Assembly: GCF_035987325.1 (NCBI RefSeq)
Contig: NZ_CP108488.1
Location: 8,618,001 to 8,682,000, forward strand
Length of the DNA stretch: 64,000 nt
Direction: 5' to 3'
Origin: Streptomyces sp. NBC_01244
GTDB lineage: Bacteria > Actinomycetota > Actinomycetes > Streptomycetales > Streptomycetaceae
Shown here one piece after another: positions 4,552 through 13,092 of this stretch. Made by a program: the position numbers and the translations under genes. The notes beneath the pieces were generated by a model. The model searched no databases and was not told the DNA's origin. It worked only from the letters and a program-made list of their open reading frames with translations. Every line of letters starts with the position of its first letter. The stretch's first letter is position 1.

Positions 4552-5670
4552 CTACCGCCAGACGACGGCGCGCCAGCGGACCGGCCAGCTCCTCGAACTG
4601 CCCACGTCAGCCGCGACGTTCCCGCTCGCGTTGATCGCGAGCGGCTGGGTCGTGTCGATGCCGGCGGGAAGGGGAAGGGCGGTGACCCGCCCCCGTGGGT
4701 CCCATGTCACGGCACGCTCGTCGGAGGTGCCGACGCCGGTCCCCGCGTCGTTGATCCCGTTGACGAAGACCCGGCCCGTGCCGGGCAGCACCTCGAGTTC
4801 GGTGGTGTCGTTTCCGTCCCACCTCACGGCATGGTCCTTGACGTTCCCGACGACGACGTCGGAGTTGTTGACGCTCACGGACCGCGCGCCGATCCCCTGC
4901 GACGGCAGGGCCTCGAACCTCTTCCCGCGCGGGGCGCGGACGGCCTTCCACTCCCCGGCCCCGTCGGTCGCCCGGCCGATCACCGTGCCGCGGTCGTTGA
5001 TCGCGGCCGGCTCGCTGTACGAGCCCCCGAGCGAGCCGAGATCGTGGACACGGCCCGCTGTGTCCCAGCGCACGGCCCGGGTCTTCTCGCCCGGCACGAA
5101 CACGTGGCCGGCGATCTCTCCCCGCTTGTTGATCCCGGTGGCCACGCCCCCCTCAGCCCTGGCGGGCAGGCGCAGTACGGTCGCCCGGCCGTCCGCGCCC
5201 CAGCGCACCGGGCGCGTGCGCCCGGCCGTCGACAGACGCCCCACGGCGACGTGGGCGTCGTTGATGTCCTGGGCTTCGCCGTCGACGTAGCCCGGCGGTT
5301 CCTGGAGCCGGGTGAGGGCGCCCGACGCGTCCCAACGGGCGGCATGGCGCACGCCGTCCGCCGTGGCGGTGAAGCCGGCCACGGTGCCGTCCTCGACGAT
5401 CTTGACCGCCTGCCCGCCCGAACCTCCGGAGACGGCCTGCAGGCGGGTGAGGGAGCCGTCGGCGCCCCACCGTACGAGGTAACCCTCCTCGTTCTCGTCC
5501 AGCGAGAGCCCCACGACGTCCCCGGCGTCGTTCATCGCCTGGGCCGAACTACTGGAATGGCCTGCCAGGAGCGGCAGTTCGTACATCGAGACGGCGACGC
5601 CGGAGGGCGCGGAGAGCGCGGAGGGCGCCACCATCACGGATAACATCGCGGAAACCACCACGGGTATCAA
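4552..5670 (-). CDS. Secreted HAF-repeat protein
   Basis: This is a protein of about 372 residues made of repeated units of roughly 45 residues. Each contains an AxRWD or VRW turn followed by an INxxGxVVG segment, for example AINDRGTVIG and GINKRGEIAG. This is the HAF-type extracellular repeat, predicted to fold as a beta-propeller-like array. I prefer the TTG at 5670 because AGGGGAG lies 6 bases upstream. It gives a short signal peptide (IPVVVSAMLSVMVAPSALSA) that fits secretion. A GTG at 5715 is the alternative and would add 15 polar residues before it. No catalytic residues are recognised, and the role outside the cell is unknown. Confidence 0.75.
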   Translation of the reverse strand: MIPVVVSAMLSVMVAPSALSAPSGVAVSMYELPLLAGHSSSSAQAMNDAGDVVGLSLDENEEGYLVRWGADGSLTRLQAVSGGSGGQAVKIVEDGTVAGFTATADGVRHAARWDASGALTRLQEPPGYVDGEAQDINDAHVAVGRLSTAGRTRPVRWGADGRATVLRLPARAEGGVATGINKRGEIAGHVFVPGEKTRAVRWDTAGRVHDLGSLGGSYSEPAAINDRGTVIGRATDGAGEWKAVRAPRGKRFEALPSQGIGARSVSVNNSDVVVGNVKDHAVRWDGNDTTELEVLPGTGRVFVNGINDAGTGVGTSDERAVTWDPRGRVTALPLPAGIDTTQPLAINASGNVAADVGSSRSWPVRWRAVVWR

Positions 5671-5806
5671 GAAGATCTCCCCTGTCTTCTCGGACTGACA
5701 CGGCGCCGGACGCACCCGCCCACCCCTGTTGATCCCCCGGGCGGCGGGAACGGCACGACGCCCGAGCCCTGCCCCGACCGCGACACGAAGAAACGTGCCC
5801 GGATTT

Positions 5807-7288
5807 TCAGGAGCACAGTACGTGCACCAGGCCCTCCAGAGCGGTGTTGTCGAGCGCGGTGCGGTGCGCGAGTTTGTTGCGGGACACCCGCAGGGTCCGC
5901 AGCCGGTTGGCCTCCGGCTGCGTGAGCCGTACGTGGCCCTGCAGGTGGGCGTGCCACATCACCCCGAGTTCCATTTCGGCCTGCTGGCCGTAGAGGGCGG
6001 CGAGTTCGGGCCGGGGGAGGCGCGAGCGGACGCCGATCACCTCGGTGAACTGCTCACGGGCCTCGTCGAGCAGGGGCAGCAAGGCGTGATTCTGGGCCAG
6101 CCAGATGCGGGTGCGCACGCTGTGCTCGTGCTCGGCCGCGCCGCCGGGGCGGTGGCGCAGCCGTCCGTCCCACCGGTCCAGCCTGCCCAGGTCCCATTCG
6201 GGGCGCAGCGAGGCGTTCGGATGGAGCAGGGCCGCGATGGGTTCCGACCTCCGCGGCTCGGGTACGGAGGTCGGCCCGGGTACGGAGCTCCGCTCGGGCC
6301 CGGCGGTCCGCTCGGGTACGCGGCCGCCTGTGAGCAGCCGCAATTGCGCGGGAAGACTATCCGGGAGTCCGTCCCACTCCACCGCCAGCCGCGCGGCGAG
6401 GTCGAGGAAGGGCCCGCACACCTCGACCACGGTGGCCTGCGCCACCGCTTCGAGGAGCTGGTGGCGGGCGGCCGGGCCGGACGGGAGGGGCCGGGCCATG
6501 GCGACCACGGTGGCGGTGTCCAGCCGGCCCAGGGCGCCCCACCACCAGTGCACGCCGATGTCCTCGCGCGCGATCTGCTCCGGCAGTTCCACGGGCAGCC
6601 CCGCCGACGTGGCCAGTACGAGCAGCCGGGGGCGCCGTTCGGGAGGCAGGCCGGCCGCCTTGACGGTGGCGGACAGCCGGCGCAGCAGTTCGGTCGCCGC
6701 CGTCGGAGCCGGTTCCTGCCAACCGCGCACCAGGATCACCCGGGTCGCACCGGGGCCGCCCGGGGCGGCGGTGAGGCGGTCGAGCAGTCCCTCGACCCCG
6801 GTGTGCCCCTGGTTCTGGTCCGAGGCCCTGTCGCCCAGCTCCTTGACGATCCTGTCGGCCAAGTCGTGGAAGGTGGCTCCCTCCGGCGGGCCGTCCGGTG
6901 CCGGGGCCCGCGCCCCCGGCACCGCCGCGCTCCTCGTCCGCACGGCCGAGAAGGCCGACAGGCCGTCGTCGTAGTCCAGGATCGGGTCCAGGCCGCCGCC
7001 CCACGGGCTCGAAGGCAGGGGAACCGGCGGGGCCGCGGCAAGGCTCCCGCGCGCCGCGTCGTCGCCGGGTGCGGGCACGAGGACGAAGTCGGCCAGTTCG
7101 TGGAGGAGCTCGTTCAGCACGTCCTCGACGGCGGCCGGTTCCCCGGTCAACTGGGTCTGCGGGAAAAGGCAGAGGCAGCTCCGCCCCGACCGCAGGTCGG
7201 CCAGCAGCCTTCGCATCCACAGCCGCACTCCGGGCAGTGCGGTCACGGAGGTTCCGGCGGTCACATCCGGTTCAGGGGCGGGAATCAC
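5807..7288 (-). CDS. Uncharacterised protein with C-terminal HEPN-like Rx4H motif, partner of the giant ATPase
   Basis: This is a 493-residue protein not recognised as a named family. Its GTG start (7288) overlaps the stop of the upstream 1935-residue ATPase in a GTGA, so the two are translationally coupled. The N-terminal two thirds looks like a degenerate NTPase or STAND-like module: hydrophobic strands RVILVRGW and PRLLVLATSAG, but no Walker A. The last 120 residues are helical, with an RIWLAQNHALLPLLDEAREQ segment and a final RNKLAH (about residues 470-475). RNKLAH matches the Rx4-6H signature of HEPN ribonucleases, as in Swt1-like HEPN domains. That makes an RNase effector possible, but the fold assignment is inference from short motifs. 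Confidence 0.75.
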   Translation of the reverse strand: MIPAPEPDVTAGTSVTALPGVRLWMRRLLADLRSGRSCLCLFPQTQLTGEPAAVEDVLNELLHELADFVLVPAPGDDAARGSLAAAPPVPLPSSPWGGGLDPILDYDDGLSAFSAVRTRSAAVPGARAPAPDGPPEGATFHDLADRIVKELGDRASDQNQGHTGVEGLLDRLTAAPGGPGATRVILVRGWQEPAPTAATELLRRLSATVKAAGLPPERRPRLLVLATSAGLPVELPEQIAREDIGVHWWWGALGRLDTATVVAMARPLPSGPAARHQLLEAVAQATVVEVCGPFLDLAARLAVEWDGLPDSLPAQLRLLTGGRVPERTAGPERSSVPGPTSVPEPRRSEPIAALLHPNASLRPEWDLGRLDRWDGRLRHRPGGAAEHEHSVRTRIWLAQNHALLPLLDEAREQFTEVIGVRSRLPRPELAALYGQQAEMELGVMWHAHLQGHVRLTQPEANRLRTLRVSRNKLAHRTALDNTALEGLVHVLCS

Positions 7289-10200
7289 GAAGGGTCCGCC
7301 AGGAGCTGGAGCGCCCGGAAGGTGATCCGGTCCAGTGAGCAGCCTTCCGGTCCGTCGTCCAGGACACCGTGGTCGAGCAGCCGCCCCACGAGGGCTCCGA
7401 CCTCCTCGATCCGCATTCCGGTGACGGACGAGATGTCGGCGTACGTGCATCCCTCGCCGGGATTCACGTACTGGCTCCACTCGGTCAGCACTTCCGTCAG
7501 GCAGGTGTCGAGTCCGACCCGCTTCAGGTGCGCCCGGGCGAATTCGGTCTGCCCGATGAAGTCCCGGGCATCCTCCAGAGCTGCCTCGAGCGTGGAGCCC
7601 TCCCGCGTGATGCGGTGCACGGTCCGCTCCAGCATGTGGGGCCATCCACCGGTGAGTTCGATGACCCGGCGCCGCTTGTCCGGGGTGTCGAACGGACACT
7701 CCGGCCAGGCGCGGAGACTGTCCGCGGTCCACCGCTCGGGATGCACCACACTGGTGATGAGCTCCTCCACTTGGCCGTGCTCGTCCGGATCCACGAGAAG
7801 GACGGCCGTCCGATGGGGTGCCCCGCCCTCCGGCAAGGAGGTGTGGGCGTGCAGGGCCTTTGCCCAGTCCGCCACCTCGACGGACCCGCGACCCCGGACG
7901 TCGGCCAGGATCAGGATCGGGCGACCGTCCACATCCTTCGTCAGGGCCTTGGGCAGGGCCCCGGGGGCCGTCTCCCGGAATTCCAAGCCGCGCGCGGTGG
8001 AGTACGAGCGCACCGCAGCCTTCACCAGGGCGGGACCGTGGGCCTGGGTCAGACAGACCGCGGCCACCCCGGGCGCCGTCACCAGGTGCAACTGGTGCTC
8101 CGTCAGCGGACTGTAGCGGGCGATGCCCTCGGGGTCCGACCCGACGAAACGCCGCGAGAAGCGCGGGTTGTAGTCGTAGGGGAGATCGAACTCCGTCTGG
8201 CGCAGCTCGAGTTCGAGATCCTCTCGGGTTCCCAGCATGCTGACGACATTCGGGCTGCGGACGGCGTACAGGCGCGCGTCGGCCAGTTGGATGAGCAGGC
8301 CCAGGCCGACCATCTCGTCCAGATAGATCCGTACGTCGGTCGCGGTGAGCGAGCTGAACCCCTCCCGCCAGCGGTCCTTGGCCGCTCTCAGCAGCTCGTC
8401 GGCGTCGTAGCCGTACCGGTAGCGGTCCTCCTGGCTGCGCAACGCGATCACCAGGGCGAGGACCCGGTAGCGGTCCTCGAGGTTGATGGTGATCCGCAGC
8501 CGCTCGGCGATGTGCCGGTGGACCTGGGCGGATCCCGTCACGGACCGGACGTCCTCGTCCGTGACCGTGATCGGCCACTGCGCCGAGGCCAGCGGCTTCC
8601 CGCGGAGGGCCGCGACGAGCCGCTCGCAGAAGATCTGGACCAGGCACGCCTGGTAGTTGGTCGCGGCGAGCACGCGCCACACCAGCTCGGGCCGCTCGAA
8701 GCGGTACCCGAAGGCCGCCATCGGCTCGACGACGAGGCGCTGGGCCTCGGCCGGCTTCAGGGTGCTGATCAGTACATCCGGACCACCGTGCGTCAGGGGC
8801 ACGTTGGAGAGGTGGCTGAAGCGCTGGACCTGGTGCAGACCCGCGAACACGATCTTGAATCGGCGGTCGGTGCGGTCCATCAGCCCCTTCAGCCGCAGCA
8901 CGTTGGAGAAGGTGGCCTCCCCGCCCCGCCCGCGGACGGCCTTGGAGTCCGCGGTCAGGAAGGCGTCGGCCTCGTCGGCGAGGACCAGCACCCGCCGGTC
9001 GTGACTCTCCTCCAGCCACTTCTCCACCCTGGCGAGCAGCGCGTCCGGGGTGCGGCCGGAATCCGGGGCCTCGCCCAGCACGCCCACGCGCTTCAGCTCG
9101 TCCTCGAGCACCGCCCAGATGCGTTCGGCCGGCTCGGCCTCGCCGACCCCGCGCGCCTTGAGGTCGACGTAGATGGCCTTGCGACCGGGGGTGCCCGGGA
9201 AGGACGCCTGCACCTTGCGCAGCAGAGCGGACTTGCCCAACTGGCGCCCGCCGTAGAGGAACAGAGCGCCGAGCGGATCGGTGACGGCGGCGATTTCCTC
9301 CTGCCGGCCGTAGAAGACCTCCGGCGGTACGAGCCCGGCCACGAACGGCGTGTACGGGTTGTAGGCGGTCCAGGGCAGGGTCACCCGCTGAGTGGCCCGG
9401 AAGGATCGCGGGGAGCGTGCCGCCACCCAGCCGAACACGGCCGGGTCCACCACCAGCGCCTGCTGGGAGGAGGCGGTGCGTGCGCGGGCCGCCATCTCCC
9501 GGCGCCCGTTCAGACCGAGCGGGTACAGATAGAGGATCAGACACGCCCCGGAGTCACTGCTGTCCAGCAGTTCCAGCGGGCTGCGGCCGCGTTGCTCGTC
9601 GGAGACCACGAGGATCGTGTACGAGGACGCGGCCGACCCGAGAGCGGCCACGTAACCGGGAGCCGTCTCGCTCGCCCGCGCCCGGGCGCTGAGCCGCAGA
9701 ACACCGCGCACCTCGTGCTGCTGGTCCCGGACGGGCGTTTGTGAGCATTCCAGCCCGAGTACGCGCAGGACCGACGGGATGTGCCGCTGCCACTCCGAAC
9801 CCCGGGTGGCCGGGCGGCACAGGGAGTCCCACGACTCCAGCCCGCTCCGCGCGCCCTCGGTGAGGGGCTCCCCGTCCAGGTAGAAGTCGGCCCAGAAGCG
9901 GGCGGAGTAGCCCTGGGCGCCGGCGGCCTTGCGCACCCCGGAGAGCTCGATGCCGGCGGTGAAGCGGTCCAGCTCCGCCCCCGAGTCCGTACCGCTCCAG
10001 TCGGGGAGGGGCTTGCCCTCGCGCAGCAGCGCCAGGCACTCCTCGGCGGTGACCGTGTCCCCCGCGTCGAGCAGCGAGGTCAGGCGTTGCTGCTCCTCGG
10101 TCGTGGGCTTCAGCGCGGCCAGGCTCTCGTGGAGGTGTTCCACGTACTCCCGGACCTTCGCCCGCATCTCGCCCTCGAGGGCGGTGATGCCGGTGCAGGC

Positions 10201-13092
10201 GTGGCCGAACGCGCCTTCCGGTTCGGGCCGGCGCAGCTCCTCGAGGCGGCCGACGAGTTTGCGCTCCGTCTGCATGTCGAGCTGCTGGGTCCGCAGTTCG
10301 GCGAGGAGGGTGAACGCTTCGGCGTGAGCCTTGCGGTGAACGGCCGTCCAGCGCGCCCACTCGGGGTCGCGCAGCTGGCGCCAGTCGCGCGGCACGGCGT
10401 CGAGGCCCGCCGGGAGGGCGGGGACGCGGTCCTGTTCCAGCGCCGAGACCAGTGCGTCGGCGAGATGCAGGTCGCCCCGGTCGAAGTACCTCCGGAGCAC
10501 CGCGCGGGCATCGACGGGCTCCAGCAGCGTGAGCACCGCCCCGCCGAAGCCCTCCTCCTCCGGCCGGGGCACGCCCTCGGCCGACCGCGGGAGCTCCGGC
10601 GCCGCGAGCAGGGCCTCCGTACCGGGCTGGTCCGTCACGCGCACGGCGTCCGGGTCGCGCGCCGGGACGGCGGTGCCGGGCGACCGGTCTCCCCCCAGCA
10701 GCCAGGTGCGCAGCCGCAGCAGCGCGGCCCCTTCGACGCCGGGCGGGGGCGATTCGTCGCGTACCTGGTCCAGGGCGTGCCGCAGGGCGGTGGTGGTGTC
10801 CGCTCGTTCGTCGACGGCGGGGGCGGCCAGGGCCCGGGCGCGGGACAACAGGTCGGACACCTGCTCGATGCTGCGCAGCAGAGCGCGTTTGGCGGCGGCC
10901 TCGATCGGTTCCTTCGCCTGCTTCGGCGTGCGGATCTCGGCGTCGGCCTCCTCGATCATGCGTTCCGCTGAGCCGCGCTTGCGGAAGAGCTCCCAGATCC
11001 GGTCGAGGTCGGCCGCCCCGGCGGTGCCGGACGCCCAGGCGCTGACTCCGTCCAGGGCCTTGCCCAGGGGCTGGTCCGAGCCGATCAGCCGGGTTCTGAC
11101 GTGGGTCGCGCGGGTGTAGCCGATGCGCTGGCGGCGCAGTGCGTCCCGCAGTTCGGCGGCCTCGGAGGAGAGCTGGTCGGGGGTGAGTCCCGGGATGCCG
11201 TCGGTGGTCAGGCGGGTCGCACCGAGGTCGAGCCGGTGGTAGCGGCGCAGCGCGTCGACGGCCCGTTCCAGGAGCTTGCCCCAGTTCCCGGGCACGGCGG
11301 AGGAGAGGTCCGTCTGGATCAGGAGGTCGTTGGGCCAGCCGGCCAGCAGACCGGCCCGCAGGGAGGCCACGGCGGCGAGCACCAGGGCCGGCCGGTCCGC
11401 CTGGAGCAGCTGGATCTCCGGGTCGAAGCCGGTCATCACGGCGACGGCCTCCTCCTCGTCGCCGCAGGCGAAGGCCGCCTCGGCGAAGGCGAGGCAGGCG
11501 CCGCGGTGCGGGGGTTCCGCCGAGCCGGCCGTCGTCCAGTACGCCTCCTGGAAGCGGCCCTGGGCGATCAGCCGGGCCACCGGGGCCTCGCCGCCGCCGG
11601 TCGTCGTCGGCGGCTCCCAGGGCAGGAAGTACGGCTTCGCCGTCGCGGCCGCGACGAGGTCCGGGGCCGCCGTGTCCAGCACGGTGTCCGAGGCATCCGG
11701 GGCATCCGTGACGGGCTGGTCCGGCCGCGGGGCCGGCACCTCCGCCGCGCGTGGCCCGGCTCCGGCCTTCAGGACCGTCTCGGGGGCTGCCTCCGGCTCG
11801 GGCGCCGGGGCGGATTCCGCGGTCGGTGCTGCGGCAGGTCCGGGCTCGGCCTTCAGAGCCCGGGACTGCTCCGCATCGGGGGCGGCCTCGACGTCCGGAT
11901 CGGGAAGCAGGTCGGGTGCGGGATTCCGCTCCGCCTCGAGAGCCGGCTTCGGCTCCTCAGCCGGGCCGGCTTCCGCGACCGGTTCGGCTTCCGCGACCGG
12001 TTCGGGGGCCCGATCCGGTGCGGACACGGGGGCGGGCGGGGCGACGTCCGGCGGCGCCGCGACGGGCCGGGACGCCTGCGCCCCCGCCGCCACGAGTTCG
12101 CCCATGCGCGTCTCCACCATGGTCAGTGACTGCTGCAGCGGAATGCGGTGCGGCGCGTCGGGTGCGGCCTTGGCCAGCAGGGCGCGGAGCCCCTCGAGGT
12201 CCTCTTCCAACCTGAGCAGTTCCTCGGCGTGCTCTGCCGCCGCGTCCCTCAGCTCCTGCACGATCTCGTCGAGTTCGGCGAACCCGGCATCCGCGGACCA
12301 CTCCCGGCCGCTGACGGCGAGCCCGCCGGCGATCACGGACCGCGCCTGCTGCCATGCGTCCAACTGCTCGGCCAGCAGGTCCGGAACGGCCCTTCCCGCC
12401 CGGACCTGTCCGCCCGCCGCCTCCAGTGCCCGGCCCAGTTCCGCCGACCGCTCGCTCAGCACGCGTCGTGACGCGAGCAACTGTTCCTCGGTGATCCCCC
12501 CGGTCAACGGGTCGCCCCCTTCCCCTCGCACGGCATCCGTCTCGACTGCTTCCCCGTACACGTCGGATCCGGTATCGGATCCGGTATCGGATCCGGTATC
12601 GGTGCCGTCCGCCGGACGGCACGGCCCCTCGCCCCGCTCGCACCTGCACGGCGCCTTGGGAGCCGAGGCCGCGGCCCACAGGTCGTCCCAGCGGTCCCCG
12701 ACCAGCCCGCCGTCGGCGACGGGCCTGTCGGAGAGGTCGTACAAGGTGATCTGCGCGAGCACCGGATCGATCTCACCCAGCATCTGCCGAAGGTCTTCCG
12801 CGGCGGGCGCCGAGAGCTGCTCTGCCGGATGCCCGTAACACCGGTCCCACCGGTGCCTCGTCCAGTCCGACGCGTAGTGCGCGATCGCCGCGAGGTTGCC
12901 CGGAGTCGTGCGGCTCAGCCACGTACGCGCCGCCAGGACCTCCCGGCGCCGCAGACGCGGCGTCGGACCCTTCACTGTGGCGCCGATCCCCGGTATGTGA
13001 GCCAACATGCCCGGAATCATGAGCAGTTCTCGGAGCGCGCGGTCGTCCAGCCCGGTCACCCAGGCGTGGAGTCCGTCCCCCTTGGTGTACAT
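7285..13092 (-). CDS. Giant multidomain P-loop ATPase (1935 residues), putative conflict-system core
   Basis: This is the largest protein in the window and not a named family to me. Regions in order: an N-terminal alpha-helical part with a CRCERGEGPC cluster and TGSD repeats (about residues 150-180); a coiled-coil-like stretch (about 200-330); a Pro/Ala/Glu-rich linker (about 345-485); a long helical, TPR-like middle; then an AAA/STAND-type ATPase. The ATPase has Walker A GGRQLGKS (about residue 1280) and Walker B VLVLADEADAF (about 1367), preceded by the FYGRQEEI entry typical of STAND-like ATPases. After it come winged-helix-like segments, including a C-terminal one (TYADISSVTGMRIEEV). No transmembrane segment is seen. 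It is coupled by GTGA to the HEPN-like gene. A -10-like CAAGAT lies only 6 bases before the ATG, so the mRNA could be leaderless. Confidence 0.85.
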   Translation of the reverse strand: MYTKGDGLHAWVTGLDDRALRELLMIPGMLAHIPGIGATVKGPTPRLRRREVLAARTWLSRTTPGNLAAIAHYASDWTRHRWDRCYGHPAEQLSAPAAEDLRQMLGEIDPVLAQITLYDLSDRPVADGGLVGDRWDDLWAAASAPKAPCRCERGEGPCRPADGTDTGSDTGSDTGSDVYGEAVETDAVRGEGGDPLTGGITEEQLLASRRVLSERSAELGRALEAAGGQVRAGRAVPDLLAEQLDAWQQARSVIAGGLAVSGREWSADAGFAELDEIVQELRDAAAEHAEELLRLEEDLEGLRALLAKAAPDAPHRIPLQQSLTMVETRMGELVAAGAQASRPVAAPPDVAPPAPVSAPDRAPEPVAEAEPVAEAGPAEEPKPALEAERNPAPDLLPDPDVEAAPDAEQSRALKAEPGPAAAPTAESAPAPEPEAAPETVLKAGAGPRAAEVPAPRPDQPVTDAPDASDTVLDTAAPDLVAAATAKPYFLPWEPPTTTGGGEAPVARLIAQGRFQEAYWTTAGSAEPPHRGACLAFAEAAFACGDEEEAVAVMTGFDPEIQLLQADRPALVLAAVASLRAGLLAGWPNDLLIQTDLSSAVPGNWGKLLERAVDALRRYHRLDLGATRLTTDGIPGLTPDQLSSEAAELRDALRRQRIGYTRATHVRTRLIGSDQPLGKALDGVSAWASGTAGAADLDRIWELFRKRGSAERMIEEADAEIRTPKQAKEPIEAAAKRALLRSIEQVSDLLSRARALAAPAVDERADTTTALRHALDQVRDESPPPGVEGAALLRLRTWLLGGDRSPGTAVPARDPDAVRVTDQPGTEALLAAPELPRSAEGVPRPEEEGFGGAVLTLLEPVDARAVLRRYFDRGDLHLADALVSALEQDRVPALPAGLDAVPRDWRQLRDPEWARWTAVHRKAHAEAFTLLAELRTQQLDMQTERKLVGRLEELRRPEPEGAFGHACTGITALEGEMRAKVREYVEHLHESLAALKPTTEEQQRLTSLLDAGDTVTAEECLALLREGKPLPDWSGTDSGAELDRFTAGIELSGVRKAAGAQGYSARFWADFYLDGEPLTEGARSGLESWDSLCRPATRGSEWQRHIPSVLRVLGLECSQTPVRDQQHEVRGVLRLSARARASETAPGYVAALGSAASSYTILVVSDEQRGRSPLELLDSSDSGACLILYLYPLGLNGRREMAARARTASSQQALVVDPAVFGWVAARSPRSFRATQRVTLPWTAYNPYTPFVAGLVPPEVFYGRQEEIAAVTDPLGALFLYGGRQLGKSALLRKVQASFPGTPGRKAIYVDLKARGVGEAEPAERIWAVLEDELKRVGVLGEAPDSGRTPDALLARVEKWLEESHDRRVLVLADEADAFLTADSKAVRGRGGEATFSNVLRLKGLMDRTDRRFKIVFAGLHQVQRFSHLSNVPLTHGGPDVLISTLKPAEAQRLVVEPMAAFGYRFERPELVWRVLAATNYQACLVQIFCERLVAALRGKPLASAQWPITVTDEDVRSVTGSAQVHRHIAERLRITINLEDRYRVLALVIALRSQEDRYRYGYDADELLRAAKDRWREGFSSLTATDVRIYLDEMVGLGLLIQLADARLYAVRSPNVVSMLGTREDLELELRQTEFDLPYDYNPRFSRRFVGSDPEGIARYSPLTEHQLHLVTAPGVAAVCLTQAHGPALVKAAVRSYSTARGLEFRETAPGALPKALTKDVDGRPILILADVRGRGSVEVADWAKALHAHTSLPEGGAPHRTAVLLVDPDEHGQVEELITSVVHPERWTADSLRAWPECPFDTPDKRRRVIELTGGWPHMLERTVHRITREGSTLEAALEDARDFIGQTEFARAHLKRVGLDTCLTEVLTEWSQYVNPGEGCTYADISSVTGMRIEEVGALVGRLLDHGVLDDGPEGCSLDRITFRALQLLADPS
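12564..12599 (-). repeat. Three perfect 12-bp tandem repeats coding for TGSD units
   Basis: The unit cggatccggtat occurs three times in a row on the + strand, with a partial fourth. It lies within the giant ATPase gene and encodes a TGSD-type acidic linker near residues 163-176. As an in-frame repeat it could vary in copy number without breaking the protein. Confidence 0.85.

Follow-up and report, generated by a model that had tools for sequence, protein, structure and literature searches.

Two coupled genes on the minus strand span exactly positions 5807-13092 of the window, the whole 64,000-nucleotide stretch of Streptomyces sp. NBC_01244 DNA that was analyzed. The first gene (7285..13092, minus strand, ATG start) encodes a giant ATPase of 1935 aa (P0001), the second (5807..7288, minus strand, GTG start) encodes a partner protein of 493 aa (P0002), and a GTGA sequence (7285..7288, minus strand) provides the overlapping stop and start codons. 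The initial annotation of this DNA, which omitted the strand, had described two proteins of these lengths coupled by GTGA, and the open reading frames, their translations and the overlap were all found. The same partner protein has 479 aa in the source record (P0003), so the annotated start is placed 14 codons later. The host genome (10.0 Mb, 3 contigs) contains a single match to the partner, and the closest named homologues of both proteins are from Streptomyces.

A Pfam scan of the flanking genes identified an NAD-dependent epimerase, a member of the MR/MLE enolase family, a member of the DHDPS family and an ABC permease upstream of the pair, with one gene lacking a Pfam match and a PAS-GAF-SpoIIE protein downstream. 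These genes are unrelated to the pair, which sits among metabolic genes and outside any defense island; the earlier description of a pair standing alone between metabolic genes is therefore true within the window. The downstream gene at 4552-5715 (compare L164) is rare among relatives, and a 40%-identical paralogue of it is encoded in the same genome (C1:9261700-9262854). The window's own genome also encodes two strong GT4-conflict proteins (L228 9730-13848 and L229 8506-10689), one of which lies near genes with P-loops.

P0001 contains a STAND NTPase module at residues 1232-1634 (8191..9399, minus strand), with a Walker A motif, YGGRQLGKS, at residues 1280-1288 (9229..9255, minus strand; GGRQLGKS starts at residue 1281) and a Walker B motif, VLVLADEADAF, at residues 1368-1378 (8959..8991, minus strand). 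GGRQLGK, D1373 and E1374 are invariant across 39 aligned cores. The predicted model of the core matches the STAND/Apaf fold, with its NBD, helical and winged-helix domains, and this match implies the winged-helix segments noted earlier. The Foldseek list for the core includes Avs3 (E 8.7e-6) and ranks general AAA+ proteins (Yta7, RuvB) level with STAND proteins, and, up to E=1, Pfam assigns to P0001 only AAA_22, AAA_16, ATPase_2 and AAA_14. The fold match and the intact, invariant motifs bear out the STAND-like P-loop ATPase of the initial annotation, and it is almost certain that P0001 is a STAND ATPase, with its activity predicted. The long Pro/Glu linker reported previously was also found, as a Pro/Glu/Ala-rich low-complexity region in the translation at about residues 338-485 (11638..12081, minus strand). 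It aligns with many gaps among relatives, and its dN of 0.54 against L002 is the highest of five stretches measured. The C-terminal residues 1647-1935 (7288..8154, minus strand) lie outside the range of the fold matches, and the model's secondary structure assigns them to an alpha/beta region followed by a helical one.

The partner protein appears to combine two modules. Residues 14-320 (6329..7249, minus strand) form an AAA+/STAND-like module without Walker A, and a modest fold match supports its assignment as an inactive module that lacks a P-loop. An origin of the partner as a degenerate P0001 duplicate was considered and rejected, since a profile-profile comparison of partner and ATPase found no relation, which leaves this origin without sequence support. 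Residues 386-493 (5810..6133, minus strand) make up a putative HEPN-like helical domain, assigned from predicted helices (386-421, 426-433, 441-449, 457-474 and 481-492) and from HEPN_Swt1 matches in relatives. The C-terminus is predicted to be all-helical, with pLDDT >90 from residue 391 on, and the fold (VIA) matches end at about residue 390. Near its end lies RNKLAH, at residues 470-475 (5864..5881, minus strand), a predicted RNase active site with conserved R, N and H.

Several observations bear on this C-terminal domain. There are 90 partner homologues, and RN..[AS]H occurs at the C-terminal end of 88 of the 91 homologous proteins (P0002-P0092); P0059, P0083 and P0092 have unrelated-looking C-termini without it. 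The 'invariant' R and H of partner alignment A1 count P0092, whose C-terminus has no real motif. R470, N471 and H475 are also invariant across 24 aligned, more divergent partners and, given both sets of counts, the RNKLAH ending, as judged from sequence comparison, is more than chance. Of the 24 divergent partners, 11 gave weak HEPN_Swt1 matches, the best of them at E 8.8e-5; where coordinates are given these matches fall on the motif region, and wherever a Pfam cut-off is given they lie below it. P0002 itself had no Pfam HEPN match, a PDB sequence search with the HEPN region returned only Cas13a rows (E 1.7-1.9), and one with the full partner profile returned rows at chance level only. Thus, the HEPN-type C-terminus of the initial annotation stands as to the motif and its conserved residues, and the relatives point to a HEPN domain that is very probably present at the level of remote homology.

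The pair, whose neighborhood in other Actinobacteria had been proposed as a check, recurs well beyond the window. A genome scan with 27 ATPases yielded 512 stretches encoding relatives, and the best 80 of these gave 78 loci. A partner-profile match lies no more than 3.5 kb downstream of the ATPase in 72 of the 78, a count that favors HEPN, since similarity to the window ATPase decided the ranking of the loci and the alignment (A3) used to build the profile already included 23 of them. The RN..H pattern is present at 71 of the 72 paired loci, the remaining one (L056) reaching the contig end, and 47 of 77 related ATPase stops overlap by 4 nt with a start codon lying in the frame of an RN..H ORF. 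The six loci without a partner match are L058, whose contig ends within the ATPase, L070, where none was seen, and L072, L074, L077 and L078. One further protein, at L167, has an RNNVSH motif and no partner-profile match, and was left out of the partner counts. HEPN partners also occur outside Actinobacteria, in a deltaproteobacterium (L071), in Nitrospirae (L073) and in Acidobacteria (L075).

Mobile elements carry the pair as well. Among 27 plasmid records with an ATPase relative, 19 were examined, and a six-frame search with the partner profile gave matches at eight of these loci (L113, L114, L115, L116, L117, L120, L153 and L160). They include plasmids of Salinibacter (L113, RNRIAH) and Thiodictyon (L114, RNALAH), whose partners match the profile at E near 1e-48; in the same search no partner was recognized at L152, L154, L155, L158, L161 and L162. 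In two of five viral-contig loci (L147 12949-13944 and L148 12193-13536) the ATPase match is followed by a partner-profile match, and prophages or comparable elements may therefore carry the pair. A search of 50,697 phage records found no relative of the ATPase core at E<=1e-5. We are as good as certain that ATPase and partner form a functional pair.

The distribution of the pair within the genus is patchy, and it behaves as a cassette. Among 150 genomes of the genus, the partner profile matches 9, including one weak match (10 candidates scored per genome), the C-terminal half of the ATPase matches 22 of the 150, 14 of which have only a 30-35%-identical copy, and a search with the core profile across the phylum matched 6 of 296 genomes (2 candidates scored per genome). 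In 21 loci, two of which (L026 and L139) come from a single contig, the pair adjoins fabG/fabI-like genes, with a TldD-like gene on the other side in 19 (these gene names were read from sequences). A TldD-like gene is present in 28 of 31 genomes of the genus searched, and in 25 of the 28, including the window's genome (L191), a fabG-like gene lies within about 0.7 kb of it and leaves no room for the pair. The ATPase occupies this site in 2 of the 28 genomes and several small genes, which by eye are toxin-antitoxin-like pairs, do so in 1. As a separate observation, the fabG-like/TldD-like interval looks like an insertion hotspot (L191, L139, L140, L227). The window copy lies elsewhere, and its flanking proteins match other loci at E<=1e-40 only in L004, which shares with the window flank a 41%-identical PAS-GAF protein. 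An empty site for the window copy was not found; one flank gene is rare, and its G012 homologue lies without shared surroundings.

Comparison of relatives revealed that both the N-terminal 'fronts' of the ATPase and its partners vary. A search with residues 480-1935 of P0001 gave 342 homologues at E<=0.001 (7992 candidates scored, 120 homologues listed). Relatives of the ATPase core number at least 3431 at E<=1e-5, and among the 120 listed of these, 24 carry sigma-70 domains (for example, P0221 and P0226), several being named cyanobacterial sigma factors. The sigma-70-bearing cyanobacterial relatives have ~2400 aa. On alphaproteobacterial plasmids, three proteins of 3100-3400 aa (L115 1618-11388, L117 2107-11409 and L160 2201-12385) combine the ATPase core with an RNaseH domain and are each followed by a partner-profile gene; pPIWI-RE is identified by Pfam in L115 (RNaseH_pPIWI_RE 4.2e-30; PADLOC PprPIWI 1.2e-54), and L117 and L160 are called RNaseH-domain proteins in their records. 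The gene after the L115 ATPase matches the partner profile at 9.3e-35 and has no RN..[ASV]H string, and the L117 partner has RNKVAH. At L116 the ATPase is followed by a 197-aa partner with RNALAH and then by DruH (Druantia), and the L153 partner has RNNLAH and a profile match of 5.3e-30. On this last element, an Agrobacterium Ti plasmid (12583-18859), ThiF-family and patatin genes lie one gene beyond the HEPN partner, an arrangement that resembles a CBASS locus.

In other relatives a different gene takes the partner position, and the fetched stretches yielded no HEPN partner. These include beta-CASP nucleases (L074, L077, L078), PLD-SNF2 proteins (L072 and L119, the Pfam call being for L072 only), and DrmE_C (DISARM) proteins of ~930 aa whose genes share a 4-nt overlap with the ATPase in Cupriavidus and Burkholderia (L156 12373-15174 and L157 12316-15084). 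The ATPases of L072 and L119, both from Brasilonema, have ~2400 aa and precede the PLD-SNF2 helicase gene. Nor was a HEPN partner found in the fetched stretches of L118 and of 15 loci with ~33%-identical ATPases (L121-L135); these 15 loci, from 15 of the 150 sampled genomes of the genus, hold a second ATPase type that is 30-35% identical. The ATPase lies directly behind an unassigned 700-850-aa gene in 12 of these 15, and some also lie behind a 1700-2000-aa helicase gene (L121, with RNase_T, L128 and L131), which at L128 has DinG- and DpdF-like PADLOC matches; L166 likewise has a helicase gene and yielded no HEPN partner in its fetched stretch. A tree built from 60 cores, rooted only at its midpoint and uncertain as to the long branches L166, L116 and L118, requires 3 changes of the HEPN label, each imposed by well-supported branches; its PLD-SNF2 rows cluster with three HEPN rows (100/99). 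The tree label 'u730hel' derives from gene size and start sequence, with helicase genes checked by Pfam at L121, L128, L131 and L166 only. From the partner searches and this tree, HEPN is the usual partner, other genes have taken its place in some branches, and the fronts are variable too.

These features invite comparison with known systems. In Avs and other bacterial NLR-like STAND sensors the effector is in the same chain as the STAND module. The pair resembles them in having a giant STAND switch with a predicted nuclease effector, but its effector sits on a second protein, which has an inactive STAND-like module of its own. For pPIWI-RE, the third gene of the published three-gene set is a helicase. 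Published pPIWI-RE genes stand alone or belong to a set of three genes that includes a restriction-type nuclease (PMC3702460). The distant relative L115 is like these systems in its fusion to a pPIWI-RE module and differs from them in the gene that follows, which matches the partner profile; the words ATPase and HEPN are absent from the part of the published account compared here (PMC3702460). In the portions of PMC12839542 that deal with BREX, BrxB is an inactive STAND protein beside BrxC, an active ORC/STAND ATPase, so BREX, a defense system, shares with the pair an active ATPase and an inactive STAND partner. Unlike BREX, the pair has HEPN on the inactive STAND-like module, and a scan of seven flanking genes, two of them without any match, detected no methylase, PglZ or BrxL. 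The same source outlines a DUF499-HEPN ATPase (Hma, or BREX-related type 1) with HEPN fused N-terminally and a methylase and helicase nearby (PMC12839542; see also PMC3710099 and PMC7159879). It too links a large AAA+/STAND-type ATPase to a Swt1-family HEPN, but in the pair HEPN is on a separate protein, and P0001 was rejected as a DUF499 ATPase because DUF499 is not among its Pfam matches up to E=1.

The closest published outline is that of nSTAND2, a mobile two-gene operon with STAND cores in both proteins, one of which has eroded NTP-binding motifs and most often carries a GT4 or HEPN fusion (Kaur et al., 2021; PMC8195603). The pair resembles nSTAND2 in each of these respects, as a mobile two-gene operon with an active STAND and an inactive STAND-HEPN protein, so its initial description as undescribed is only partly right. 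The giant N-terminus, the sigma-70 and pPIWI-RE fronts and the beta-CASP partners of the pair and its relatives set it apart from the portion of that text compared, which mentions no giant proteins and gives neither sequences nor sizes (PMC8195603). That the pair simply is the published nSTAND2 system, with only giant size and details new, is a substantial possibility that falls short of even odds. Against it, no GT4-bearing partner was met, and four strong GT4-conflict loci had no called gene matching the ATPase or partner profile at E<=10, a sample too small to exclude a GT4 link.

We assign a probability of roughly 0.65 to the main reading, in which the pair is a two-gene intracellular defense (conflict) system with a predicted role against phages or plasmids. 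Such a role had been proposed from the layout of a large sensor ATPase feeding an RNase-like effector; this layout is supported, and is extended by the inactive STAND-like module that the partner also carries. A conflict role is supported by the swapping of fronts and partners for nuclease and defense modules and by the cassette-like presence and absence of the pair; its metabolic neighbors and the lack of any PADLOC match to P0001 or P0002 up to E=1 speak against it (NCBIfam gave nothing useful for either protein).

The likeliest function would be to switch on a HEPN RNase, under the control of ATP, when invaders arrive. A detailed mechanism can be sketched, tentatively and at slightly less than even odds, by analogy with STAND switches such as Apaf-1, CED-4 and NLRs. 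The giant protein would act as a STAND-type ATP switch that rests with ADP, its long N-terminal part serving to sense or scaffold, and the partner would dock via its inactive STAND-like module, with its HEPN RNase held off at rest. Binding of a foreign ligand by the N-terminal half would release the ATPase for nucleotide exchange and for assembly with the partner's inactive NTPase-like module, which would bring HEPN domains together in pairs as an active RNase. Cleavage of RNA by this enzyme would then halt either the invader or the infected cell itself. In this scheme the trigger, the RNA target and the anti-invader function are all inferred, as are complex formation, the pairing of HEPN domains and RNase activity.

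Other explanations differ from the defense reading in the role they give to the pair or to its effector. It could be a resident actinobacterial RNA-processing or stress-response complex, as would be suggested by its metabolic neighbors in the window, its low dN/dS (0.088 for STAND and 0.144 for HEPN, in one sequence pair) and the constant site that it keeps next to fabG/fabI-like genes in 21 loci, 19 of which have a TldD-like gene opposite. This is unlikely, however, for a pair whose partner is detected in so few genomes of the genus, that has no room at the fabG/TldD site in most of the genomes with a TldD-like gene, that occurs in several phyla, on plasmids and on viral contigs, and whose partner is swapped for other nucleases or helicases in some branches. 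A role as a toxin-antitoxin-like stabilization module, with the HEPN protein as toxin and the ATPase as antidote or regulator, would be in keeping with the HEPN motif, the tight coupling by 4-nt overlaps, the occurrence on plasmids and the small toxin-antitoxin-like genes seen by eye at the fabG/TldD site of one genome. A 1900-residue STAND switch is improbable as an antidote, though, and the same core also occurs with pPIWI-RE and sigma-70 fronts or beside helicases, which makes this reading quite unlikely.

It is also conceivable that the HEPN-like domain has no catalytic role and serves for RNA binding or dimerization. Some HEPN families are described in the literature as inactive, the Pfam HEPN similarity is remote, and the L115 partner lacks the usual motif string. 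The R and H of Rx4H are nevertheless kept in 88 of the 91 homologues and in all 24 divergent partners, as expected of active HEPN RNases, so a non-catalytic domain seems improbable.

An ATPase core with exchangeable fronts and effectors is of more interest than the pair alone. With close to an even chance, we propose tentatively that the YGGRQLGK STAND core represents one broad, unnamed defense chassis. Its usual effector would be a separate RNase composed of an inactive STAND module and HEPN (iSTAND-HEPN), with beta-CASP, PLD-SNF2, DrmE-like proteins and large helicases as replacements; its fronts would be long helical arms, sigma-70, or pPIWI-RE, the last representing a PIWI-type sensor wired via a STAND switch to a HEPN protein. 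A literature search, outside of which most subscription journals lie, turned up no publication that links this ATPase core to beta-CASP, pPIWI-RE, PLD-SNF2 or sigma-70 parts.

If this proposal is true, a single ATPase family puts HEPN RNases and beta-CASP nucleases, along with a prokaryotic PIWI module and parts of the DISARM and Druantia types, under one shared switch, and the role of the shared core would explain several orphan defense modules together. The cyanobacterial sigma-70 version would, in that case, monitor transcription or phage capture of RNA polymerase. In addition, the pair would provide a testable two-protein model for how an inactive NTPase module holds an RNase effector.
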